Both the position numbers and the translations under genes were made by a program. Shown here one piece after another: positions 317 to 34,716 of a stretch of 34,716 nucleotides of DNA. The DNA lies in contig JACRCN010000021.1 in the NCBI GenBank assembly GCA_016219005.1, positions 1 through 34,716 on the forward strand, in the 5' to 3' direction. The stretch is from Deltaproteobacteria bacterium. Its GTDB lineage: Bacteria > Desulfobacterota > Desulfobacteria > Desulfobacterales > SpSt-501. Below the pieces are notes generated by a model. The model made no database searches and was not told the DNA's origin. It was given only the letters and a program-made list of their open reading frames with translations. The first letter of the stretch is position 1, and the number at the start of each line of letters is the position of its first letter.

Positions 317-1600
317 TTAAGCTTGAATGTGGGCTGGGTTAAAGGACTCCTTTCGCTTCATCAACGTCCAGGCAATCACCAACATCTTGGCAGCGATCTT
401 CACCAGCATCTTGGTTCGGATGCCTTTTTCCCGCTGTCGACCGTCCAACAGCCGACTATAGTAAGCCCGGAAGTGGCTGGTTAAACTGGAGGCGACCAAC
501 GCCGCCTGGTACAACGCGTAACGCAAGTCCGCCTTGCCTTTCTTGGAGATCACCGGCACCGCCGCTTTGCTTTTCTCACCGCTGCGGTTGGCGCTCAGAT
601 CAAAACCGGCCAAACGGATCAGTTGCGCCCGGTTCTCAAAACGATGCGGATTGCCGATCGCCGCCAATGCCATGGCGGAAACGTACGGCCCGAAGCCGGG
701 GATGCTCTTTAGATAATCGTATTCCTCGAAGCCTTCGGCTATCTTCTGGATGGCGCGTTCAACACGGCTCAGTTGAGCTTGAACCGACTGAAGCATTTCA
801 ACCACCAACTCAGCCTCCAGTGCCATCGCCGGCCCCGGCCGGCAACCGATGGACTGTCCGGCCGCTTCCCAGATATGACGCAGACGCCGTTGTTGCCGGA
901 GCCCTCCGTTATGCGTCGTCACCTTGACGATGAACTGCTCACAGCTCAGCTGCCGGATGCTTCCCGGGTCGAGAAACCAACGCACGATGGCCAGGTTCTC
1001 CGCCGCGGCGTTATTCCAGAACCGGTCCAGTTCCGGGAAGTACCGGGCCACCAGGTTGTTTCGGATGCGCACGCGACAGCTGTGCAACTGCTTCTTCAAA
1101 CGTTTCCGGAACAACAGCAGGCTTCGCAGCTCCCGCAGCCGGAGCTCCGGCCGATCGTAATAGTGACATTTGCCCTGCGCCACCAGGTCCGCCACATTGG
1201 CCGAGTCCTTGGTGTCGTTTTTATCCCAGCGACCATCGATCAGGCTGCGGTTCTTCTTGATCGCCTCGTTGGTCGCATAGACCACCAGATGGCCCTGTTC
1301 GATGAGATGCTCTGCCAGCGGTTTGTGGTAGACGCTGGTGGGCTCCAGCCCGAATACGAACTGCTTGAGACCCTCCCGGTCCATGTAAAACCGAACCTGA
1401 GTCAGAAGGTGCCGGAAGCCTTCCGCGCTGTTCTCAACGATCAGCCCCTTGAGCAGCGTGCGGCCGTTGGCATCTCCGAAAAATCCGTGGTGCTTGCGCT
1501 TGGCGATATCCAGCCCTACGATGAGGTGGTCCTTCGAGCCACGGATCTCTTTCTTGAATTGACGAAAACGATCGATGCTGTTAAACTCAATCCCGTTCAT
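317..1600 (-). CDS. IS110-family transposase (RuvC-like DEDD recombinase)
   Basis: This 427-residue protein moves the insertion sequence. The N-terminal RuvC-like domain opens with the first acidic motif in LIVGLDIAKRKHHG (about residues 27-40). The C-terminal Transposase_20 domain carries IPGFGPYVSAMALAAIG and the serine-containing stretch FDLSANRSGEKSKA, with KKGKADLRYALYQAA after it. The length is at the upper end of normal for the family and no frame is broken, so it may be active. The ATG at 1600 follows AGGAGGTTACC, an excellent ribosome binding site, but that site lies in one arm of a strong stem-loop (1604-1663), so translation may be restrained. A long open frame on the opposite strand is a shadow. 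The family call is secure; the IS1111-type subgroup is only suggested by the structured 3' flank. Confidence 0.93.
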   Translation of the reverse strand: MNGIEFNSIDRFRQFKKEIRGSKDHLIVGLDIAKRKHHGFFGDANGRTLLKGLIVENSAEGFRHLLTQVRFYMDREGLKQFVFGLEPTSVYHKPLAEHLIEQGHLVVYATNEAIKKNRSLIDGRWDKNDTKDSANVADLVAQGKCHYYDRPELRLRELRSLLLFRKRLKKQLHSCRVRIRNNLVARYFPELDRFWNNAAAENLAIVRWFLDPGSIRQLSCEQFIVKVTTHNGGLRQQRRLRHIWEAAGQSIGCRPGPAMALEAELVVEMLQSVQAQLSRVERAIQKIAEGFEEYDYLKSIPGFGPYVSAMALAAIGNPHRFENRAQLIRLAGFDLSANRSGEKSKAAVPVISKKGKADLRYALYQAALVASSLTSHFRAYYSRLLDGRQREKGIRTKMLVKIAAKMLVIAWTLMKRKESFNPAHIQA

Positions 1601-5204: not shown

Positions 5205-7448
5205 CTACCCGCAGGCGGTTAGCGCCTCGAGGAAGTCCTCGGCCCACGTCGCGGCCGTCGTTTGCGAGACGACCGCAAGCAGCTTGCGGTGCCGCTCCCG
5301 CCTCTCGGCCAGCCCCATCCTCAGCGCCCGGTCCAAGTCCCGCGCCATTCCGTCCGCCTGCCACGGGTTGGTTAGCACCGCGTCCCTCAGCTCGGCCGCT
5401 GCCCCCGCGAACTTCGACAGCAGCAGCACACCGGGCTCCTTTGGCTCCTGCGCTGCCACGAACTCCTTGGCCACCAGGTTCATCCCGTCGCGCAACGGCG
5501 TCACGTACCCGACCGCCGCCGCACGGTAAAGCTCGGCCAAGTGTGCGTGGCTGTAGCTGCGGTACAGGTATCGCACAGGTACCCACGCCCCCTCGCCGTG
5601 CTCCCCGTTGATCCGACCCACGATGTTCTCGATACGCCGCCGCTGCTCAGCGTACCCTGGCACGTCCGCCCGGGAGGGGACCGAGATCTGCACCAGCGAG
5701 ACGCGGCCGCGCCACTCGGGATGCAGCTCCAGCAGGCGACCGAAAGCTTCGAGCCGCTCTGGGATGCCCTTGGTGTAGTCCAGCCGATCGACGCCCAGCA
5801 CCAGCCGGCTCGGCGTGATCGCCCGCAGCAGCGTGTCGACCTCATCGGCGACCGCCCGGTCGGCCGGCTCCTGAAATGACGCGGGGATGATCCCGAGCGG
5901 GAACGCTCGCACCCGGACGCGCCGCCCACGGTGCTCGACCGCATCGTCCGAAACCTTCGCCGGCGACAGAGCGCCGACTGTGTGGAGGAAATTGTCGACA
6001 TACGCGGCCGTGTGGAAGCCGAGCAAATCATAGTCCAGCATCGCGTCGAGAAGCTGCTCGGCCCACGGCAGCAGCTCGAAGAGGTCCGGCCCCGGGAACG
6101 GGATGTGCAGGAAGAGCCCCAGGGGCCCCCGATGGCCGAGTTCACGCAGGCCTTGCGCCGCCAGCAACAGGTGGTAGTCGTTCATCCAAACGGGCGTCTC
6201 GGGCAGGACCAACTCGCTCGCTGCCGCTGCGAACGCGCGATTGACCTCCTGGTAACAGTCCCATTCGCTATCCACGAAGGCCACGTGCTGTGGGAACATG
6301 TGGAAAAGCGGCCACAGCGCCCGGTTGCAGAATCCGTTGTAATAGCTGCGGTGCCACCGCTCGGGGAAGTCCATCCAGGCCAGCACCGGCCGCAACTCGT
6401 CGTCGATACCTATGGGGCCAGGCTCTTGCTCGGCTGTGATGCGTCCGCTCCAGCCCAGCCACAGCCCATGCCGGGCACCGAGCACAGGCTCCAGCGCCGA
6501 CACTAACCCGCCAACGTTCCGCTTGCGACCAGCCTCTCGCGGCCGCGTCGCGCGCCGCAGGTCCGGCAGCCGGTTCGATACGATGAGCAGCTCGTACCGG
6601 CCGCGGATGCTGCCGGCGCCGCAAAGGGGTGTGGTTAGAGGCTCGGGCAGCTGCGGCGAGGCCTCGGCCTGGCCGCAGCGCGTTGCCGCAATCCAGTCCA
6701 ACAGCCCGGCCACCGCGACCGGATCGGCCAGACGCCAGCGTGCGTGGCTGCGGCGAGGTGGGCCGACCAGGACCGACTCGTCGGCCACTCCGAACTCCCT
6801 GAACATCTCCTCGTCGGTCAGGTCATCGCCGAAGGCGAGCAGGCGGGCTTCAGCGCCTAGTTGTTCGCGCAGCCAAGTCACGGCTATGCTTTTGCGCATA
6901 TGCGACGGCCGCACCTCGAACACTTTGACCCCTTCGAGCCGCTCGAAGCCCGGCGCCTGAGCCAGATACTCCTCAATCGCCGCATCGACCGCTACAGTCA
7001 TAGCCGCTCGCTCCGGCTCCGGAACCAGCCGGTAGTGAAAGGTCACGGACCATGTCTTGCGTTCCACCAGGGCGCCTGGAACCGAAGCGGCTATCTGCCC
7101 GAGTCTGGTGGCCAGCGGCTCGACGTCCCTGGGTTGCCGGTCCACGGTCGCCTCCCATGCGCCGGTGCTGCGCCGCCAGCCGCCATGCTCGGCCACCAGC
7201 CAAACGCCTGGGACCGGGGCCAGCAGCCGCTCGAGGTCCTCGCGCGGACGGCCGCTAACGATCGCCAGCAACAAGCCCTGCAAAGCCGCTAGTTCGGACA
7301 GCTTCACCGCCAGCCCAGGCGGGAGCCGCGACTCGGACGGAGTCGAAACAAACGGTAGCAGAGTACCGTCCAGGTCGCAGATCACGCCGAGAGGCGTGTG
7401 CCGCACCAAAGACAGCCAGTGAGCCAGCAGTCCTTGATAGGTGTCCAT
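5205..7448 (-). CDS. Trehalose-6-phosphate phosphatase/synthase fusion, phosphatase domain first
   Basis: A bifunctional cytoplasmic enzyme expected to join UDP-glucose to glucose-6-phosphate and then dephosphorylate the product to trehalose, an osmolyte and stress protectant. The start ATG at 7448 follows GAGAGG with 6 nt spacing; an upstream start adds 21 residues without support. Residues 15-255 are an OtsB-type HAD phosphatase with DLDGT (D25, D27), SGRP and GDDLTDE (207-213). Residues 284-745 are an OtsA-type GT20 synthase with SNRLP (R293), GGLVSALEP, GWSG, SYYNGFCNRALWPLFH, NDYHLLL (D424), VDRLDYTKG (R555, K560) and TPLRDGMNLVAKEF. The usual first residue of HDYH is Asn here. Eukaryotic fusions and many bacterial ones have the reverse domain order. 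The gene is far richer in GC than both flanks, suggesting transfer. Confidence 0.93.
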   Translation of the reverse strand: MDTYQGLLAHWLSLVRHTPLGVICDLDGTLLPFVSTPSESRLPPGLAVKLSELAALQGLLLAIVSGRPREDLERLLAPVPGVWLVAEHGGWRRSTGAWEATVDRQPRDVEPLATRLGQIAASVPGALVERKTWSVTFHYRLVPEPERAAMTVAVDAAIEEYLAQAPGFERLEGVKVFEVRPSHMRKSIAVTWLREQLGAEARLLAFGDDLTDEEMFREFGVADESVLVGPPRRSHARWRLADPVAVAGLLDWIAATRCGQAEASPQLPEPLTTPLCGAGSIRGRYELLIVSNRLPDLRRATRPREAGRKRNVGGLVSALEPVLGARHGLWLGWSGRITAEQEPGPIGIDDELRPVLAWMDFPERWHRSYYNGFCNRALWPLFHMFPQHVAFVDSEWDCYQEVNRAFAAAASELVLPETPVWMNDYHLLLAAQGLRELGHRGPLGLFLHIPFPGPDLFELLPWAEQLLDAMLDYDLLGFHTAAYVDNFLHTVGALSPAKVSDDAVEHRGRRVRVRAFPLGIIPASFQEPADRAVADEVDTLLRAITPSRLVLGVDRLDYTKGIPERLEAFGRLLELHPEWRGRVSLVQISVPSRADVPGYAEQRRRIENIVGRINGEHGEGAWVPVRYLYRSYSHAHLAELYRAAAVGYVTPLRDGMNLVAKEFVAAQEPKEPGVLLLSKFAGAAAELRDAVLTNPWQADGMARDLDRALRMGLAERRERHRKLLAVVSQTTAATWAEDFLEALTACG

Positions 7449-7800
7449 ACCATACCTCTCATGCTTTGCCTTGCTTGAATAACAACTGCCGAACATGAAG
7501 GTTGACCTCATTCTATTTTACGCATACGGTCTGCAATATAGATAGATGCTGCGATATCACCAAGTTGTATAAATATCCCAAGGGAAATGCCTTGCGAGAG
7601 ACAGAGATGGTCCTGAAATGACCTTGCAAAATTCAGGTTGAAAAAGGCAAATTTGAAAAGAAAACCGAATGAGGCCAGAACAGTTGAACGAAGCCAGCGT
7701 CCGCTTCAAGTCCGGAGGAATGGGAAAGATACTTCGTTTGGAATGAATATACCCGAGTCAGAAGACCATAATCAAATGAAATGTAAGCAGGCAAAAGAGA
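7449..7800. other. Spacer upstream of the trehalose gene, no gene seen
   Basis: About 350 AT-rich bases contain the trehalose promoter region. An open frame from a TTG at 7638 (63 codons, very basic) has no ribosome binding site and runs into the R1 repeat, so I do not call it. A stretch around 7770-7800 containing ATCAAATGAAAT also occurs before the R1 copy near 29770, so the R1 homology may begin here. Confidence 0.45.
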
Positions 7801-8014: not shown

Positions 8015-9649
8015 TCAAGGCTTCAAATCCCATTCTTTGAGTTTCTTCGATGCCGTGCCGAACTGGCCCAGTTGGTAAACGGCCGCGCCCGCGGGCGAGA
8101 AGGTGAACGACTCAAACGGATCAGCGAGCATCCTGTCGAGGTATTCCCGGAGGGCGACGCCGGTGGTGACGTGCGGATTGAAATGCTCGCCGGAAGCCTT
8201 CGGAACGAACGCCGACACGTATTGGATCAAGAACGGGTCGATGACGGGATCGGCGGGTGTGGTGACGAACGCGGCCGAGGTTCCGGTTTCTACCGTGAAC
8301 GGGGTCACGGCGGCGATCACGTCCGCTTGTAGCTTGAGCAATTCCGGGGTTGGCTTCGCGACAATGCCCGAGAGGCCGATGTCCTTGCTCGGGATGTAGT
8401 AGTACTTGTAGGCTTCCAGCTTCATGCCGGTCACGTTGGCGTTGGCGAAAACCTTGCCGACGGCGGCATAGATCTTTTCGAGATCCGCGGTGCGAACGAA
8501 ACGTTGAACTATCGTGATGTGCGGACGATGCGTCGCATCCAGGGCGAAGCCTTTCGGGTAAACCTTGAGCAGGCGGGCGTTCACGGCTTCGGCATGCCTG
8601 AGCATCGTGGCGTCCGGCTCCAGCAGGATGTCAATGGCCGTGACCGGGCTCCGCTCGAACGGGAAGACCTGCTTCCAGTCGTCCTTCATGCTGACCACGG
8701 TCCAGCCATCCTGCTTCGCCTGATCGTAGAGCGCCTGCGTGAAGGCACCGAGTTTGGGTTTGGGTAATCCGAGTGCCGGCCCGTAGGCGTATTCGCGCGC
8801 CGCATCATCGTGCAGCACCAACAGCATGAACCGCGCGCCGGTGCCGCCCTGCGTGTATTCCAGCATCTGCTGGTCGCCCGCGGAATTTCCGAACGCGGCG
8901 ATGGGCCGGCGGCCGATGTGCTGGTTGATGCCGACGGGCTTGCCGCCTTTGTCGTCATTGAAGTTCAGCTGCGGCAGACGCACGAGGACGGGCTTGCCGT
9001 TGCGCATTTCAAACCTGGTCTTGATGCTGCTGCCGACGACCTGCTCGGGCGGGATGCCATAGACCTTTTCCGTCCACGGCCGCATGAATTCGATGCCGCC
9101 GCCGGAGACGATGAAGTTCTTGAAGCCGTTCGCCCGCAGATAGGCGAGCAGTTCGAGCATCGGCTGATAGACCATCTCGGTGTATGGCTTGCCGGTCTTA
9201 GGATGTTTCGCGGTGGCGATCCAGTCCTTCACAATCTGCTCGAATTCCACTGTGGTCATGCCCGTGTGCGTGGCCATGACGATTTCGAGGAGTGCGCGGT
9301 CGCCGCCCGCGAGCGCGGTTTTCAAATCGCCCTTGAGCAGCGAGGCAAAGGGTTCCCTGGTTTTCCATTCGGGATGCTGCGGCGCAAGCGCCTTCACCCG
9401 GTCGAGCGCGAAGTACAATTGAACCGGCAGCGGCTGCTCGCACCAGAGAGTCCCGTCGTTGTCGAAGGTGGCGATCCGCTCGGCGGGCGGAACAAACGCC
9501 GCCGAGCCTTCCTTCGTCACCTTCTCCACGAAGCTGATGATCCCCTGCTTTGTGGGCCCGTCGTTCCAGGATGGAAGCGGGTCGGCGGCAAAGGCCGCGT
9601 TTGTGAGCAGCAGCAGAGCGAGCAGAGCCTTCAACAGTGCGCTTTTCAT
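8015..9649 (-). CDS. Exported fusion of a HAD phosphatase and a 2H-phosphoesterase-like domain
   Basis: A 544-residue periplasmic protein. The signal peptide ends near AFAADP (residue 22). Residues about 35-315 are a HAD-superfamily phosphatase of phosphoserine-phosphatase type: nucleophile motif FDNDGT (D63, D65), SGGG in the middle, and AAFGNSAGDQQML as the metal-binding motif. Residues about 335-544 look like a 2H phosphoesterase (LigT/cyclic phosphodiesterase fold), with both catalytic-type motifs present: HITI (H377) and HVTT (H493). The HAD part is certain by motif; the 2H part rests on the paired motifs and overall shape. The substrate is unknown. It lies 63 bp downstream of an exported sulfatase on the same strand and is very likely co-transcribed; AAGGAGG precedes the ATG. 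Together they could strip sulfate and phosphate groups from an organic substrate. Confidence 0.88.
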   Translation of the reverse strand: MKSALLKALLALLLLTNAAFAADPLPSWNDGPTKQGIISFVEKVTKEGSAAFVPPAERIATFDNDGTLWCEQPLPVQLYFALDRVKALAPQHPEWKTREPFASLLKGDLKTALAGGDRALLEIVMATHTGMTTVEFEQIVKDWIATAKHPKTGKPYTEMVYQPMLELLAYLRANGFKNFIVSGGGIEFMRPWTEKVYGIPPEQVVGSSIKTRFEMRNGKPVLVRLPQLNFNDDKGGKPVGINQHIGRRPIAAFGNSAGDQQMLEYTQGGTGARFMLLVLHDDAAREYAYGPALGLPKPKLGAFTQALYDQAKQDGWTVVSMKDDWKQVFPFERSPVTAIDILLEPDATMLRHAEAVNARLLKVYPKGFALDATHRPHITIVQRFVRTADLEKIYAAVGKVFANANVTGMKLEAYKYYYIPSKDIGLSGIVAKPTPELLKLQADVIAAVTPFTVETGTSAAFVTTPADPVIDPFLIQYVSAFVPKASGEHFNPHVTTGVALREYLDRMLADPFESFTFSPAGAAVYQLGQFGTASKKLKEWDLKP

Positions 9650-9712
9650 CCATTGCCTCCTTGATGCGAATTAATGACGGGGCGCTGCCCGAAGCGCCCC
9701 GCCGCGTCCGTG

Positions 9713-11317
9713 CTACTTCGACCCGCCGCCTTCCTTCAGCTTCTGAAGGACCGCATCCATGTTGAAGGCGTCCGCCTTCTGCCGCTGCGGGTAGTCCTTG
9801 AAGGTCATCAGGAACTCGCCCACGAACCCCTGCGCGGGGATCAACATGAAGGCGTGATCCAGCAGCCAGTCGTAATAGGTGTTCGAGGTTATGTCAGCCC
9901 GCTCGTACGGGTCCGTGCGGAGATTGAAGATCTTCGGTACCCGCAAGGTGGTGAACGGGTTCGCCCAGACCAGTAGCGTCCCGGGGGCACGCTGCTCCAT
10001 GAAGACGAGCTTCCAGTTGTCGTAGCGCAGGCCGGTCAGTTGCTGGTCGTCGTTGACGTAGAAGAACGATTCCCGTGGACTCTTCTCAACCTGGCCGGTC
10101 AGGTAGGGGACGAGGTTATCACCGTCCAGATGGACCTTGTAGGTCATGTCCCCGATCTTGTAGCCCTTGAGCAATTTGTCTTTCACTTGCGTATCCCCGG
10201 CGACGGCCAGAAGGGTCGGCAGCCAATCGAGGTGAGCGACGATCTCGTTGGAAACACTGCCCGGTTTGATATGACCTGGCCAGCGGACCATGGCCGGCAC
10301 CCGATAGGCGCCTTCCCAGTTCGTGTTTTTCTCGCTGCGAAACGGCGTCATGGCAGCATCCGGCCAGGAGTTCATGTGCGGACCGTTATCGGTGGAGTAC
10401 ATGACGAAAGTGTTGTCCGCGATGCCGAGGTCGTCCAGGACCTTGAGGACCTGGCCGACGTTCTTGTCGTGGTCGATCATGGTGTCGTGGTACGGGCTCT
10501 GCCAGCGCCCCGACTGGCCGATGCTCTCCGGCTTGGTGTGGGTGCGGAAATGCATGTGGGAGAAGTTCACCCAGACAAAGGCCGGCTTGCCGGCCTTGTT
10601 TTGCCGCTGGATGAAGTCCACTGCCCGCGCGGCAACGTCATCGTCGATGGTTTCCATCCGCTTCTTGGTCAGGGGACCGGTGTCCTTGCATACCTGTTTG
10701 CCGACCTTGCCGAAGCGTGGATCCACGGTCGGATCGTCTGTACTCGAAGCTTTGCAGTCCATCACGCCGCGGGGACCGAACTTCGCGCGGAAGGCCTGAT
10801 CTTTCGGGTAGTCCGGCAGTTCCGGCTCTTCCTCGGCGTTGAGGTGGTAGAGGTTGCCGTAAAACTCGTCAAAGCCATGCACGGTGGGCAGGAACTCGTT
10901 GCGGTCACCCAGATGGTTCTTGCCGAACTGGCCGGTGGCATAGCCTTGTGCCTTCAACAGCTCGGCGATCGTCGGGTCTTCCTTTTGCAGCCCCACCGTC
11001 GCGCCCGGCAGACCGACCTTGGTCAGGCCGGTGCGCAAGCCGGACTGGCCGGTGATGAATGACCCCCGGCCGGCGGTGCAGCTCTGCTCGGCATAGATGT
11101 CGGTGAACATCATCCCTTCCTTTGCCACACGGTCGATGTTGGGCGTCTGGTAGCCCATCAGGCCTCGCGAGTAGGCGCTGATATTGGACTGGCCGATGTC
11201 GTCCCCCCAGATGATGACGATGTTGGGCTTCTTCTCCGCCGCTGCCGGACCTGCGACCAAGGCCAAAGCGGCAAGCAACACGAAAAAAATGTTCAATGCT
11301 TTTAGACGGTATCTCAT
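9713..11317 (-). CDS. Exported arylsulfatase, type I (formylglycine) family
   Basis: A sulfatase of 534 residues that would hydrolyse sulfate esters in the periplasm. The start ATG at 11317 has AGAAGGAG 6 nt upstream and gives a clean signal peptide ending AGPAAAEKK; a frame extension to 11398 lacks support. The metal-binding aspartates are in WGDD (residues 38-40). The active-site motif is SCTAGRGSFITG, with C80 as the residue converted to formylglycine; it fits C-x-A-x-R instead of the commoner C-x-P-S-R. Further conserved parts are GKNHLGD, MYSTDNGPHMN and the C-terminal NLRTDPYERAD. Maturation needs a formylglycine-generating enzyme, which is not encoded in the window. It is first in an operon with the HAD/2H fusion. 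The natural substrate cannot be read from the sequence. Confidence 0.92.
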   Translation of the reverse strand: MRYRLKALNIFFVLLAALALVAGPAAAEKKPNIVIIWGDDIGQSNISAYSRGLMGYQTPNIDRVAKEGMMFTDIYAEQSCTAGRGSFITGQSGLRTGLTKVGLPGATVGLQKEDPTIAELLKAQGYATGQFGKNHLGDRNEFLPTVHGFDEFYGNLYHLNAEEEPELPDYPKDQAFRAKFGPRGVMDCKASSTDDPTVDPRFGKVGKQVCKDTGPLTKKRMETIDDDVAARAVDFIQRQNKAGKPAFVWVNFSHMHFRTHTKPESIGQSGRWQSPYHDTMIDHDKNVGQVLKVLDDLGIADNTFVMYSTDNGPHMNSWPDAAMTPFRSEKNTNWEGAYRVPAMVRWPGHIKPGSVSNEIVAHLDWLPTLLAVAGDTQVKDKLLKGYKIGDMTYKVHLDGDNLVPYLTGQVEKSPRESFFYVNDDQQLTGLRYDNWKLVFMEQRAPGTLLVWANPFTTLRVPKIFNLRTDPYERADITSNTYYDWLLDHAFMLIPAQGFVGEFLMTFKDYPQRQKADAFNMDAVLQKLKEGGGSK

Positions 11318-11401
11318 TTTTTTCTCCTTCTCAATTATTGGGTTCCGGTTTGCATCTTTCTGTTTGTGTGCAACAAGAGGGCGAGATGTAAGCGCCACCC
11401 T

Positions 11402-11551
11402 TTAAACTGCTTCCACGGCCGCAAGGTCAAGGTGGTCGGTGGATGCCGTAGGCTTGAGCACGAAACCTTTCGCCCCTGCCGCAAGGCATTCATCCATCAC
11501 CGTCTGTTCGTCATGTACGCTCAGGATGATGGCTTTGAACTCGGGGGTGGT
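11402..11551 (-). pseudogene. Fragment of a response-regulator receiver domain
   Basis: On the minus strand about 50 residues match the second half of a NarL/FixJ-type receiver domain: PEFKAIILSVHDEQTVMDEC, then AAGAKGFVLKPTAST with the conserved lysine, then an AAVEAV end with a probable small indel. The phosphoacceptor half, the linker and the DNA-binding domain are absent. The upstream part of the frame (HRLIVHSRYSLA) is not receiver-like. I take it as a deletion remnant just upstream of the sulfatase operon. It is unlikely to be functional. Confidence 0.7.
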
Positions 11552-19820: not shown

Positions 19821-20546
19821 ATGGAAAGCAGCTTGTCCTTCAAAAGGGTCGCGACATTCATCAGCTTGATCATATTAACACTTTTAGCCGCATGCGCTTC
19901 GACCAAAGTCAGCGACCGGGAGACCCTTTACTCTGGGCCACTTCCCAGGCCCAACCAGATCATCATCTATGATTTCGTGACGACTCCCGAGGGAGTACAA
20001 CCCGATTCCGCCCTATCGATGCAAGATGTAGCGCCCTCCATTCCCCCGAGCCCCCAGCAAGCCGAACTCGACCGCCAGCTTGGAATGAAGATCGCTGAAG
20101 AACTTGCCCAAGAAATCCTCAATATGGGCCTCCCTGGGGTAAGGGCTACCCAATCGACGACACCTCAGGTGAACGACATCATGCTCCGGGGCTATCTACT
20201 CACGGTCGACAAGGGAAGTGCCGCTGAGCGGGTGGCGCTGGGGCTTGGTGCGGGCGCATCGGATTTGAAGACCCTAATTGAAGGCTATCAAATGACACCT
20301 CAAGGACCTCGCAAGCTCGGCCAAGGCGACGTGAACGCAGGGGGAAGCAAGACCCCGGGCGCAGCCGTTGGTCTGGCCACCCTCCTGATCACCCACAACC
20401 CGGTCGGCCTTGTGGTATCAACCGGGGTCAAGGCCTACGGCGAAGCAAGCGGCAGCGCCACAATCGAGGGCAGGGCCAAGGCAACCGCCAAAGAGATTGG
20501 CGACCAACTTAAAATTCGCTTCGAGCAGCAGAACTGGATCAAGTAA
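19821..20546 (+). CDS. DUF4410-family lipoprotein
   Basis: A 241-residue protein with a lipoprotein signal: a hydrophobic stretch, then the lipobox LAAC (cysteine near residue 26), so it should be anchored to a membrane facing the periplasm. The body shows the DUF4410 pattern: QIIIYDF, a GMKIAEELAQEIL helix, an LRGYLLTVDKG strand, a glycine-rich GLGAGASDLKTLIEGYQM segment and a C-terminal AKATAKEIGDQLKIRFEQQ helix. The function of the family is unknown. AGGAGG lies 7 nt before the ATG. The large sulfatase starts 70 bp downstream on the same strand and may be co-transcribed. Confidence 0.87.
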   Translation: MESSLSFKRVATFISLIILTLLAACASTKVSDRETLYSGPLPRPNQIIIYDFVTTPEGVQPDSALSMQDVAPSIPPSPQQAELDRQLGMKIAEELAQEILNMGLPGVRATQSTTPQVNDIMLRGYLLTVDKGSAAERVALGLGAGASDLKTLIEGYQMTPQGPRKLGQGDVNAGGSKTPGAAVGLATLLITHNPVGLVVSTGVKAYGEASGSATIEGRAKATAKEIGDQLKIRFEQQNWIK

Positions 20547-20615
20547 TGAGCTTTTCGAAAATAATGTAGCGGCCTGATCGGACTTCCCTAATTGTTTTGG
20601 AAGGAGGAGCACAAG

Positions 20616-23102
20616 ATGAGACAGAAGCAAATCTTGGTGTTGCTCATCGCGCTTGCGGTCACGCTTCCGGCCCTGGCGCAGGAAATTACCGGTGTGCCTG
20701 GATCGCCCAGCGCCACCACCTCCATCGGCGGAAAACAGCTTCCGCCGCCCGATCCGCAGTTCGACGGCGTGATCAAGGAGAAGGCCTCGGAGTCGAAAGC
20801 CTGGTGGGCGCCGCGCGTCGTGCCGCCGAAGGGCGCGCCCAACGTGCTGCTGATCATGACGGACGACAGCGGGTTCGGCGCGCCGGGCACGTTCGGTGGC
20901 GTCGTTCCGACACCGGCACTGGATCGCATCGCGAAGAGCGGGATGCGGTACACGAATTTCCATTCCACGTCGCTTTGCTCGCCCTCGCGTGCGGCATTGA
21001 TCACCGGGCGCAACCACCACGTGACCGGCTTCGGGGTGGTGGGCGAAATCGCGACGGGATTCCCGGGCTACGACTCGGTCATCAGGAAGGAGAACGGCAC
21101 CATCGGCGCCGTCCTGAAGGAGAACGGGTACGCGACGTCGTGGTTTGGCAAGGATCACAACACGCCCTTCTATCAGTCGACCCAGGCCGGGCCCTTCGAC
21201 CAGTGGCCCAACGGTATGGGCTTCGAGTACTTCTATGGCTTCGTCGGCGGCGACGCCAGCCAGTGGCAGCCGAACCTGTACCGCAATACGACGGCCATCT
21301 ACCCCTTCCATGGCAAACCGGGCTGGAACCTGACCACGGCCATGGCCGACGAGGCGATCCAGTACATGAAGGAGCTCAAGGAGATCGCGCCCGACAAGCC
21401 GTTTCTTGTCTATTACGTACCGGGCGGCACTCACGCACCGCATCATCCCACACCGGAGTGGATCAAGAAGATCAGCGACATGCACCTCTTCGACGGCGGC
21501 TGGAACAAGCTGCGCGAGACCATCTTCGCCAACCAGAAGCGGCTGGGCATCATGCCCGAGAACGCGAAGCTCACGCCGTGGCCGAAGGAACTGCCTGAGT
21601 GGGACTCGCTCAGTTGGGACGAGAAGAAATTGTTCATCAAGCAGGCCGACGTCTTCGGGGCCTACCTTGCCTACACGGACTACGAGATCGGCCGCGTCAT
21701 CCAGGCGGTCGAAGACCTGGGCGAACTCAACAACACCCTGATCATCTACATCGCCGGCGACAACGGCGCGAGCGCGGAAGGCATGCTCAACGGCACGCCG
21801 AACGAGTTCACCACCTTCAATGGCGTTCCCGTGCCCGTCAGGGACCAGTTCCTCTGGTACCCATTCTGGGGGTCCGACCGCACCTTCCCGCACTTCGCCG
21901 CACCCTGGTCTTTGGCGATGGACACGCCGTTCAAGTGGATGAAGCAGGTGGCGTCGCACTTCGGCGGCACGGCCCAGGGCATGGCCATGTCGTGGCCCGG
22001 CCACATTAACGACGTGGGCGGCACCCGCCGTCAGTTTCACCACCTCATCGACATCGTTCCGACCATCTTAGAGGCGACCGGCATCCCGGCGCCGGAAACG
22101 CTCAACGGCATCCAACAGCGCCCCATGGACGGCGTGAGCATGGCCTACACATGGGACAAGGCGAACGCCAACGCCGCGTCCCGGCGCACCACGCAATATT
22201 TCGAGATGCTCGGCAACCGCGCCATCTATCACGACGGTTGGTTGGCAGCCACGACCCCGGCGACGCTCCCGTGGGAGCTGAGCAGCGCCCCGCCGCCCGA
22301 CGTGATCACCGGGTACAAGTGGGAGCTCTACAACGTCGCCGAGGATCCCACCGAGTCCAACGACCTTGCGGCCCAAATGCCGGACAAGCTCAAGCAGATG
22401 CAGGACATCTTCTACGCCGAGGCGAAGAAGCATGACGTGCTGCCGCTCGACAACACGACGCTGCAGCGCTGGAACGCGCCGAAGCCGAACCTCACCGCGG
22501 GGCGAACCAACTTCACGTACACAGGAACATTGACCGGCGTGCCCAACAGCGGCGCTCCGAACATCCTGAACAGGTCGTTTACCATTACCGCCGAGGTCAC
22601 GATTCCCAAAGGTGGCGCGGAAGGCATGATCGTCACCGACGGCGGGCGTTTCGGCGGCTACGGACTTTTCTTGAGCAAGGGTGTGGCGGGTGTTCGTCGG
22701 GGCAAGCCGGTGTTCCTCTACAACCTGCTCGACCTCAAGCGCACGATCTGGGCAGGGCCCGAGTTGGGCGCCGGCAAGCATACCATCGTCTTCGAATTCA
22801 AGTCCGATGGTCCGGGCCTGGGCAAGGGAGGGACGGGCGTGCTCTACGTGGACGGCAAGGAAGTAGCCAGGAATTCCATGGAACACACCACCCCGATCAC
22901 GTTCCCGGAGGACGAAACCTTCGACATCGGCCAGGACACGCGCACCGGTGTCGCGATGCTGGAGTATCGCTACGGTGTTCCGTTCAAGTTCACGGGCAAG
23001 ATCAACAAGCTCACCTTTAACCTCGGACCGCAGCAACTGACGGCACAGGAACGCGAGCAACTCCCGGCCATTGCCAAACGGGTTGCCCTTGCGAAAGACT
23101 AA
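20616..23102 (+). CDS. Large exported arylsulfatase with C-terminal beta domain
   Basis: An 828-residue sulfatase. The ATG at 20616 has AAGGAGG upstream; a TTG 24 bp earlier overlaps that site and is not the start. The signal peptide ends at PALAQEITG. Catalytic elements are MTDDSGFG (D83, D84), the formylglycine motif SLCSPSRAALITGR (C121), WFGKDHN, YIAGDNGASAEG and the late VYN-type segment ELYNVAEDPTESNDLA. Residues about 640-800 form an additional beta-rich domain (FTITAEVTIPKGG, GVLYVDGKEVA, YGVPFKFTGKINKLTFNLG). The total length is about 50 percent above a simple arylsulfatase. It differs clearly from the sulfatase at 9713-11317. Long frames on the opposite strand are shadows of this GC-rich gene. 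The substrate is unknown. Confidence 0.94.
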   Translation: MRQKQILVLLIALAVTLPALAQEITGVPGSPSATTSIGGKQLPPPDPQFDGVIKEKASESKAWWAPRVVPPKGAPNVLLIMTDDSGFGAPGTFGGVVPTPALDRIAKSGMRYTNFHSTSLCSPSRAALITGRNHHVTGFGVVGEIATGFPGYDSVIRKENGTIGAVLKENGYATSWFGKDHNTPFYQSTQAGPFDQWPNGMGFEYFYGFVGGDASQWQPNLYRNTTAIYPFHGKPGWNLTTAMADEAIQYMKELKEIAPDKPFLVYYVPGGTHAPHHPTPEWIKKISDMHLFDGGWNKLRETIFANQKRLGIMPENAKLTPWPKELPEWDSLSWDEKKLFIKQADVFGAYLAYTDYEIGRVIQAVEDLGELNNTLIIYIAGDNGASAEGMLNGTPNEFTTFNGVPVPVRDQFLWYPFWGSDRTFPHFAAPWSLAMDTPFKWMKQVASHFGGTAQGMAMSWPGHINDVGGTRRQFHHLIDIVPTILEATGIPAPETLNGIQQRPMDGVSMAYTWDKANANAASRRTTQYFEMLGNRAIYHDGWLAATTPATLPWELSSAPPPDVITGYKWELYNVAEDPTESNDLAAQMPDKLKQMQDIFYAEAKKHDVLPLDNTTLQRWNAPKPNLTAGRTNFTYTGTLTGVPNSGAPNILNRSFTITAEVTIPKGGAEGMIVTDGGRFGGYGLFLSKGVAGVRRGKPVFLYNLLDLKRTIWAGPELGAGKHTIVFEFKSDGPGLGKGGTGVLYVDGKEVARNSMEHTTPITFPEDETFDIGQDTRTGVAMLEYRYGVPFKFTGKINKLTFNLGPQQLTAQEREQLPAIAKRVALAKD

Positions 23103-32318: not shown

Positions 32319-32445
32319 GGGCGGCTGCGCCATAAGCCCAAATTCAAGGCGTGCAAGTGCCGTGGCGCGAGGCGTACTTCAGGTACGACGCAGCGGCGGC
32401 GGCACGCGGCACAACGCGGAAGTTGGGCTTATGGCGCAGCCGCCC
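32319..32445. mobile_element. MITE-like element 2, overlapping the end of the ATPase gene
   Basis: The terminal inverted repeats 32319-32341 and 32423-32445 are identical over 23 bp, starting GGGCGGCTGCGCCATAAGCC. Imperfect pairing continues inward to a central hairpin CGTAC-ttcag-GTACG (32373-32387). The element is 127 bp long and encodes nothing. Its right arm contains the last five codons and TAA stop of the ATPase gene, so insertion has probably replaced the original end of that gene. Confidence 0.72.
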
Positions 32446-34716
32446 GCCAGGCAGGAACGGCCTGGCCTTGCGCATCCCGCCGGTAGGGCAGCCAGAGCAA
32501 CCCGAAAAACTCCTGGGTGATGCCGGCCGGGGTCGGTGCGATCAGGACTTCCTGGAGCGTTTCGCTGCCCGGGTCGAACGCCGCCTCGATCTTGGCGATG
32601 TCCGCCTGCAGCGCCTGGTCCAATTCCGCCATCTGGGTTTTGACCGCCTCGGCGGTTTCCTGCGCCCGGGCGGTGTCCATGCTTTCCTTTTGCAGGCGCC
32701 CGGCCGATTTCATGGCGGCCCCCAGACGTCCTGCCGAGGTGGCGCTGACGGCCTTGCGGCCGAGGAAGGCCCCGAGGATGGCCGTCCCGAAGGAGATGGC
32801 GGTCTCCACCTTCTTGGCGGATAACTGTTCCTTTTCCCGCGTCATGGCCTGCTCCGCCCGCATCAGCCGGTCCTTCAGCGTGGTGAACTTGCCGGCGTAA
32901 CGGCGCCGCAGCTTTTCCACCTCGAGGTCGCGCTGCTCCCGGCCGGCCTGGGACAGCCGGGCGACGAACTCGGCCTTGGATTCCTCCGGCCGCGATGTAA
33001 GACCGAAGCGCGCCGAGCGCATCAGCCGCAGGCCGCAGTTCTGGCGCACCCAGCGTATCAGGTCCTTGCGCCACGCGTCATAGGACTTGGCCTTCCTGGC
33101 CTCCGCCGGAAGCTCGGCGAAAGCGGCACCGGCTGCGGGTTTAGCCTTGAGCCCGGCCGGGTCCAGGGTGAGGGCGACGGCCTGGTCCCAGTCGAGCGCG
33201 ACCGGGCCTTCCGCCGGCGGGGCGGCGAAGGCCATCTTCCGGGAGAGGTCCATCTGCTGCTTGGCGCTGGTGTAGTGAATCTTAAGGCTGGCCGCCACCG
33301 CCGGGAAATATTCGATTCCCGGCGCATCCTCGGAAGCCGGCAGGTAATAGGCGGTTATCCCCGGCGGCAACAGCGGCGGCTGGGGTTCCCCGGCAGCACT
33401 CGGAGCGGGCGCCGGCAGCCCCTGCGGCGGCAATGTCGCCGGTGCCGGCGGCGCAAGTGATGGGACGGCCGCTCCCGCGGCCGTGAGGGCCTTGATATGC
33501 TCGCGCGTCATGGGGCCGCGCAGATAGGATAGCGTCCAGCGGGTCTGGAAAGTGACCGGGGCGTTTTCGTGGACGTTGTTCAAGAGAAATACGCGTTTGC
33601 CCAGCCCCGCCAGAATTCTCTCCATGCGGCCGCGATCGAAGCTCTCGCCGCCGGCGGCCCCCTCCAGCCCGGCCATCACCCGTTGTTTGTCGCCCTCGGT
33701 CTGCAGGCGGCCGATGAACCAGGTGCCGGTGTTGGCGAGCCCCTTGTAGTCGAGGTCCACCGGGTTCTGGGTGGCCAGCACCACCCCCAGCCCGTAGGCG
33801 CGGGCCTGCTTGAGCAGGGTCAACAGGGGTTGCTTGGAGGGCGGATTCTTGACCGGCGGGAAGAACCCGAAGATTTCATCCATGTACAGGACGGCCCGCA
33901 GGCTGGAGGTGCCGGGCTGGGTCCGGACCCAGGCCAGGATTTCGTTCAGCAGTTTGGAGACGAAGAACATGCGCTCGGCCTCGCCGAGGTGGCTGATGGT
34001 GAAGATGGAGGCCCGGGGCCGGCCTTCAGCCGTGAACAGCAGGCGGCCGATATCCATCGGCGCACCTTCCAGCCAGGCCTCGAACCCGGGTGCGGCCAGC
34101 AGGTTGTTGAATCGCATGGAGAGTTGGAAGCGTTCGTTTGCCGGGTAAAAGGAGTCGAGGTCCATAACCCCCAGGCGGGCAAAGGGCGGCTCCTGGATGG
34201 CGCGCACCAGGCCCGGCAGGTCCAAGCCCTTGCCCTGCGACCAGGCCGCGTTGAACAGGTTGGCGACGAGGATGTGCTCGCGGCTGCTGATGGGGTCGGC
34301 CTCGATTCCCGCCAGTGCCAGCAGGGAGGTGGTGGTGCTCTGGACCCGCTCCCGCACGAGGTCGCGGTCTTCCAAGACGACCGCGGGCGGCGGCACGAAG
34401 CTGCCCAGGGCGTTTACCGGCAGGCCCGACCGGCTGCCCGGCGTGTAGACGGCCAACTCCGCCGCCGCCCTCAGACGGGCGATGCGCTCCGGCCCCTGGG
34501 TCCAGTCGGCGAGCCCCTTGCGCCAGACCTCGGCCTGCTTGGCGGCGAACTGCGGCCGCGTGAGGCCGGCCGCCACGGCTTCCTGCTCGTCCACCCAGGG
34601 CAGGAAGTCCTGCGCGGCCAGATCCGGGAAGGTGAGAAGCAGGTTGGGCAGATCGCCCTTGGGGTCGATGGCGATCACCGGGATGTTGTCGAGCAGCGCC
34701 TCCTCCAGCAGGCCGA
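32429..34716 (-). CDS. HerA/VirB4-like P-loop ATPase, 5' end outside the window
   Basis: At least 762 residues; the frame stays open to the right edge, and the Walker A motif must lie beyond it (the first visible residues are GLLEEALLDNIPVIAIDPKG). The ATPase core shows IDPKGDL, then SIFTISHLGEAERMFFVSKL, the Walker B stretch AVLYMDEIFGFFPP, and VVLATQNPVDLDYKGLANTG with a downstream arginine, as in HerA/DUF87-type ATPases. A proline/alanine linker follows, then a C-terminal region with a long coiled coil (DRLMRAEQAMTREKEQLSAK) and a glycine-rich GTAILGAFLGRKAVSATSAG. The substrate (DNA or protein) is unknown. The last five residues RAAAP and the stop come from MITE element 2, so the natural C-terminus is probably altered. 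Confidence 0.82.
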   Translation of the reverse strand, partial: GLLEEALLDNIPVIAIDPKGDLPNLLLTFPDLAAQDFLPWVDEQEAVAAGLTRPQFAAKQAEVWRKGLADWTQGPERIARLRAAAELAVYTPGSRSGLPVNALGSFVPPPAVVLEDRDLVRERVQSTTTSLLALAGIEADPISSREHILVANLFNAAWSQGKGLDLPGLVRAIQEPPFARLGVMDLDSFYPANERFQLSMRFNNLLAAPGFEAWLEGAPMDIGRLLFTAEGRPRASIFTISHLGEAERMFFVSKLLNEILAWVRTQPGTSSLRAVLYMDEIFGFFPPVKNPPSKQPLLTLLKQARAYGLGVVLATQNPVDLDYKGLANTGTWFIGRLQTEGDKQRVMAGLEGAAGGESFDRGRMERILAGLGKRVFLLNNVHENAPVTFQTRWTLSYLRGPMTREHIKALTAAGAAVPSLAPPAPATLPPQGLPAPAPSAAGEPQPPLLPPGITAYYLPASEDAPGIEYFPAVAASLKIHYTSAKQQMDLSRKMAFAAPPAEGPVALDWDQAVALTLDPAGLKAKPAAGAAFAELPAEARKAKSYDAWRKDLIRWVRQNCGLRLMRSARFGLTSRPEESKAEFVARLSQAGREQRDLEVEKLRRRYAGKFTTLKDRLMRAEQAMTREKEQLSAKKVETAISFGTAILGAFLGRKAVSATSAGRLGAAMKSAGRLQKESMDTARAQETAEAVKTQMAELDQALQADIAKIEAAFDPGSETLQEVLIAPTPAGITQEFFGLLWLPYRRDAQGQAVPAWRAAAP

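Follow-up and report, generated by a model that had tools for sequence, protein, structure and literature searches.

The window, i.e., the whole stretch of 34,716 nucleotides that was analyzed, contains a gene for a predicted exported protein in which a HAD phosphatase domain is followed by a 2H-phosphoesterase domain, and directly upstream of it a sulfatase gene (Table 1). The fusion gene starts with an ATG located six bases behind a GGAGG sequence (9660-9656). The amino terminus of its product was recognized by eye, rather than with a dedicated predictor, as a signal peptide (MKSALLKALLALLLLTNAAFA, followed by AD), the best 12-residue mean hydropathy amounting to 2.66. The adjoining domain reaches 41.3 bits with PF12710 (3e-10; cut-off 27), matches PDB entry 4ovy in phmmer at E 4.7e-119 and carries both the DxD and the GNSxxD motif, on the basis of which it can be assigned to the HAD superfamily. 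D63 in motif I is the likely nucleophile, by analogy with HAD enzymes in general. An exported HAD protein had already been suggested in a first-pass annotation made from the sequence alone, and both the predicted signal peptide and the PF12710 score agree with it. A second HAD copy of the same genome, located on contig C97, lacks a 2H domain.

Table 1. Location of the fusion gene, its domains and motifs, and the upstream sulfatase gene in the window.
Feature	Position	Strand	Basis
HAD-2H fusion gene, 544 aa, with signal peptide	8015..9649	-	ORF and translation; Pfam
Signal peptide, residues 1-21, likely cleavage between AFA and AD	9587..9649	-	by eye; hydropathy
HAD phosphatase domain, residues 23-333	8651..9583	-	PF12710; PDB 4ovy match over 23-333
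HAD motif I FDNDGTL, residues 62-68, likely nucleophile D63	9446..9466	-	sequence
2H phosphoesterase domain, residues 334-544	8018..8650	-	AlphaFold model of 333-544; Foldseek, VIA
First HxT motif, H377-I-T379 (in PHIT)	8513..8521	-	H invariant 51/51
Second HxT motif, H493-V-T495 (in PHVT)	8165..8173	-	H invariant 51/51
Predicted exported formylglycine-type sulfatase, 534 aa from likely ATG	9713..11317	-	PF00884 181 bits vs. 25; QSCTAGRGSFITG

The open reading frame of the upstream gene extends from 9713 to 11398 on the reverse strand and matches the sulfatase family PF00884 at 4.4e-53. Translation more likely begins at position 11317, where an ATG lies (by eye) behind GGAG, and the gap to the fusion gene therefore comprises 63 bases. 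Read from this ATG, the protein starts with a signal peptide as well (by eye), and it contains CTAGR, which fits the formylglycine motif C-x-(A/P)-x-R; family match and motif together predict a formylglycine sulfatase. The sulfatase neighbor noted in the first-pass annotation is thus a PF00884 gene on the same strand. A candidate hairpin in the intergenic stretch (about 9676-9703) was rejected, as it folds no better than shuffled sequences (z -0.73). Just upstream of the sulfatase gene, a reverse-strand segment at about 11440-11540 resembles by eye the receiver-domain end of a response regulator and is perhaps a gene remnant. Further away, on the forward strand, a gene for a DUF4410 protein (19821-20546) is followed by that of a larger second sulfatase (20592-23102, 836 aa, CSPSR motif), encoded on the strand opposite to the first and sharing just 33% identity with it across 151 residues. 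Altogether, the genome yielded seven sulfatase-domain matches, five of them over the cut-off, of which two lie in the window and two on C97; a potential sulfatase-maturing protein (PF03781) is encoded elsewhere in this genome. Two other reverse-strand frames of the window may be mentioned, one for a trehalose phosphatase (residues 45-241) fused ahead of trehalose-6-phosphate synthase (308-765; window 5205-7511), the usual order being synthase first, and a 749-residue frame (32429-34678) without Pfam match at E≤0.001.

The carboxy-terminal part of the fusion protein scores 18.6 bits with PF13563, under the cut-off of 27. All 51 aligned 2H domains match this family at E≤0.01 (best 1.8e-9), and in longer frames the cut-off is exceeded by the relatives L026 (30.4 bits), L050 (33.3 bits) and L088 (36.8 bits); it is also reached by L059 and L081. 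An AlphaFold model of residues 333-544, built from the 51-row alignment, attained a pLDDT of 94.1 and a pTM of 0.90. With this model, the best Foldseek match was the Arabidopsis cyclic nucleotide phosphodiesterase 1jh6 (E 2.6e-6), and all 25 matches listed at E≤0.001 are 2H-type enzymes by title. VIA Z scores were 15.3 for YjcG (2d4g), 15.0 for drCPDase (5h7e), 14.7 for 1jh6 and 14.1 for LigT, with rmsd values of 2.9-3.3 over 162-172 residues, and in these alignments sequence identity to the LigT/ThpR, YjcG, CPDase and drCPDase structures is just 11-18%. The 2H-phosphoesterase fold suspected in the first-pass annotation is therefore borne out by structure prediction and by both comparison methods, while another fold did not appear, and the two histidine motifs stand at the positions given there. 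In the model, H377 and H493 each start a beta strand (domain residues 45 and 161; strands 46-54 and 161-168), a placement also described for the histidines of LigT (PMC5283653). The columns of both histidines are invariant in all 51 aligned rows including that of the window; the first motif has T in at least 90% of these rows, the third position of the second is T or S throughout according to a pattern search, and both HxT/S patterns were found in 51/51 frames. We consequently predict a 2H fold with two conserved H-x-T/S motifs. The structural matches also include the central domain of AKAP18 (VIA Z about 13), a non-enzymatic 2H relative, which would fit a non-catalytic binding module; a function of this kind is very improbable in view of the complete conservation of both histidines and both motifs. 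A model of the full-length protein (pLDDT 79.2, pTM 0.54) is too poor for orienting the domains and their sites.

The alignment of the 2H domain did not match the genome's single ThpR-like protein, encoded beside a recA-like gene, in hhalign (probability 0.4%), and no match was present among 50,697 phage records. A sequence profile search of the PDB returned just two hits, both of them weak, partial and to retron reverse transcriptases (best E 0.042), which we took as chance.

Scanning genome contigs for the 2H domain yielded 59 loci, a number that stayed the same upon addition of L010 from a search of the order and removal of L070, a 30-residue match in which tblastn did not find the 2H domain; L001 and L009, the copies belonging to the window itself, were not counted. 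Classes were assigned by hand. HAD-2H fusions account for 24 loci (two of which, L067 and L068, are partial), fusions of the 2H domain to a PAP2 phosphatase for 12 (including L055, cut by a contig end), and a separate 2H gene is present in the remaining 23 (in two frames in L063). The first-pass annotation had called for a survey of the HAD-2H fusion, which thus recurs in 24/59 other loci. As the same fusion is found in many other genomes, chance is excluded as its cause, and at the sequence level the fusion in the window is confirmed to be real. One relative in this class (L015:2915-3901) lacks the middle of the HAD domain (query residues 51-211) and has an intact 2H part. Next to separate 2H genes, a HAD gene occurs within 3 kb in 11/23 cases, counting two on the other strand (L061, L065) and one fragment (L069); it is missing within this distance in the other 12, in some of them because the contig ends. 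In a single genome (L088) the order of the fusion is reversed, with the 2H domain preceding the HAD domain and PF13563 as well as PF12710 above their cut-offs; by eye, a gene beside it looks like one for an anaerobic sulfatase maturase. In L087, HAD, 2H and sulfatase are encoded in three adjacent frames. The HAD motifs are well preserved in fused frames (FDNDGT in 23/25, GNSxGDxxM in 24/25), and these strict patterns are rarer in 21 frames with HAD and without 2H domain (14 and 20, respectively).

Export appears to be frequent among the relatives and not universal. A crude hydropathy rule for signal peptides was reached by 17/22 HAD fusions, 11/11 PAP2 fusions and 13/20 others; by eye, no signal peptide was visible in the pair from Streptomyces, in two genes of Variovorax or in the reversed fusion.

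The 2H domain is rare, being present in 3/395 genomes of the phylum, one of which is the window's own, while the other two contain L087 and L088. The search at the level of the order gave 3/389, again including the window's genome and in addition the doubtful L011 (E 6.7e-4, 27% identity, frame amidohydrolase-like by eye), which was dropped. Among plasmid records there were seven matches, five of which were examined. An Ensifer plasmid carries a sulfatase upstream of a PAP2-2H fusion (L083) and a Rhizobium plasmid the genes for a sulfatase, a HAD protein and a separate 2H protein (L084); on plasmids from Rhodococcus (L081) and Streptomyces (L082) a HAD gene directly precedes the 2H gene, and no HAD was found at the locus of another Rhodococcus plasmid (L085). 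According to the records, origins include Pseudomonadota, Acidobacteriota, Planctomycetota, Verrucomicrobiota and Nitrospirota, which together with Actinomycetota from the plasmids makes six phyla, although single assignments may be wrong because many relatives are metagenome-assembled genomes.

The alternative fusion partner resembles the PhoC/PhoN phosphatases: PF01569 was detected in 7/10 frames scanned (best 2.4e-19), all three motifs are present in 11/11 frames of PAP2 fusions, and the PAP2 part of L029 scores 175.6 bits with the PhoC model NF045654, under the cut-off of 430. In a tree of 51 2H domains, at least five changes between HAD and PAP2 partners are counted among fused rows; when PAP2 is set against all other labels there are seven changes, and well-supported branches force all seven. 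The row nearest to the HAD-fused 2H domain of the window is the PAP2-fused L014, with 81% identity. Phyla are mixed as well; for instance, the Verrucomicrobiota rows L041 and L057 group with L060 from Rhodoblastus. The simplest reading of this tree would be gene transfer accompanied by exchange of the phosphatase. An IS110-type transposase is encoded in the window (317-1600, -), and the family to which its 2H gene belongs seems to be mobile across phyla.

In the present case, the fusion partner suggests the next step of the reaction and the signal peptide suggests action outside the cytoplasm. 2H enzymes convert 2',3'-cyclic phosphates to 2'-phosphates (PMC5283653), and an enzyme that would naturally follow is a phosphomonoesterase; from this chemistry and from the joining of the domain to two unrelated phosphatases, one of them in both orders, we propose a path from cyclic phosphate via monoester to free phosphate, located in this organism outside the cytoplasm. 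The exported protein would thus combine two catalysts for consecutive steps, a reading to which we assign a probability of roughly 0.55. The 2H domain would open a cyclic phosphodiester to a phosphomonoester; its substrate would most likely be a 2',3'-cyclic nucleotide or an RNA fragment that ends in a cyclic phosphate. From the phosphomonoester, the HAD domain (a PhoC/PhoN-like PAP2 in other bacteria) would remove the phosphate, so that phosphate and alcohol would be released into the periplasm. The sulfatase gene upstream is probably co-expressed with the fusion gene, and its product would scavenge sulfate from the same or other organic molecules. The activity, the order of the steps, the substrate, the sulfatase's part and its co-transcription are what we infer here, 2',3'-cyclic nucleotides being a first guess. 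Opening followed by dephosphorylation had been brought forward in the first-pass annotation, and this sequence of steps now receives indirect support from the two unrelated phosphatases to which the 2H domain has been fused.

It is the same exchange of partners that argues for coupled steps against the idea that the two domains act on different substrates and are joined merely through shared export and regulation, the 2H domain cutting, for example, cyclic dinucleotides or 2'-5' linkages. The poxvirus cGAMP phosphodiesterase 9bkq is indeed second in Foldseek (E 8e-6), phage Acb1 (7t26) is among the VIA matches (Z 10.2), and 2H genes exist that have no phosphatase nearby. Mere co-export, however, does not predict that two unrelated phosphatases, with HAD in either order, are joined to the 2H domain, and VIA Z scores are higher for CPDase- and LigT-like enzymes; we consider such a division of substrates improbable.

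The link of sulfatases to 2H genes is looser than that of phosphatases. A sulfatase gene was found within 3 kb in 27/59 loci, made up of 13/24 HAD fusions, 6/12 PAP2 fusions and 8/23 loci with separate 2H genes; the remaining 32 were without, some of them with a contig that ends too early to tell. In loci with HAD only (L002-L008, flanks of about 1.5 kb or less), a sulfatase stands beside the HAD gene in 4/7. Near the fusion of L029, a gene for an anaerobic sulfatase maturase was identified by TIGR03942 (464 bits vs. 349; cluster in 5 loci). Neighbors were surveyed in 125 crude stop-to-stop frames, taken from 137 that had been selected from 421 candidates, and no nuclease is among the 25 commonest of the 155 Pfam families in these frames. 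Such surroundings would also suit a non-nucleotide substrate, i.e., the same two-step chemistry on a cyclic phosphate or phosphodiester of glycerol, inositol or a sugar, perhaps sulfated, with sulfatase, 2H domain and phosphatase stripping one molecule. We regard this as rather unlikely, as the 32 loci without a nearby sulfatase speak against it and the 2H activities listed in PMC5283653 concern nucleotides and RNA. The commonest Pfam family among the neighbors is DUF3313 (5/125 frames). A protein of about 143 residues without Pfam match (representative L049:6019-6447) is encoded near the 2H gene in L043, L047, L049, L052, L054 and L066.

Returning to the two-step reading with a cyclic nucleotide, the PF02872 domain (the C domain of CpdB/UshA) is encoded in 10/14 control genomes and was not found in the window's genome, which is 98.5% complete; this is suggestive and no proof. 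More tentatively, one might picture a mobile module, exported in most cases and present in at least six phyla, in which one 2H cyclic phosphodiesterase is combined with unrelated phosphatases that can replace one another (PAP2, or HAD in either order), and which either performs the task of CpdB with other folds or opens environmental cyclic phosphates that have gone unrecognized as a phosphorus source, tied to the use of sulfate esters. If true, soil and water bacteria would possess an additional phosphorus-scavenging route for cyclic phosphates, and a clear case would be at hand of unrelated phosphatases swapped behind one first step. The individual domains are all known. A literature search, covering mostly papers accessible without subscription, yielded no account in which an exported 2H domain is joined to a phosphatase of the HAD or PAP2 type, and the exchangeable, mostly exported combination thus appears to be new. 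For the solved structure 4ovy, no paper naming it was found.

Among characterized proteins, LigT/ThpR, YjcG, the Arabidopsis CPDase and drCPDase have their fold in common with the 2H domain of the window (VIA Z 14-15), and two HxT/S motifs at strand starts are likewise shared with known 2H phosphoesterases. In contrast to these enzymes, the domain described here is predicted to be exported and is fused to a phosphatase. The HAD protein of PDB entry 4ovy matches residues 23-333 of the fusion protein from end to end, its chain of 310 residues differing by the absence of a 2H domain. Class A acid phosphatases of the PhoC/PhoN type (PAP2) are absent from the window and take the place of HAD in 12/59 loci, where, unlike plain enzymes of this class, they carry a carboxy-terminal 2H domain. 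CpdB of E. coli consists of a metallophosphoesterase and a 5'-nucleotidase C domain, neither of which is among the three families found in the fusion protein with Pfam at E≤0.1. As a periplasmic 2',3'-cyclic phosphodiesterase and 3'-nucleotidase, it catalyzes both steps (PMC4905662), and what it shares with the fusion protein is solely the proposed task, an extracytoplasmic breakdown of cyclic nucleotides that yields nucleoside and phosphate.
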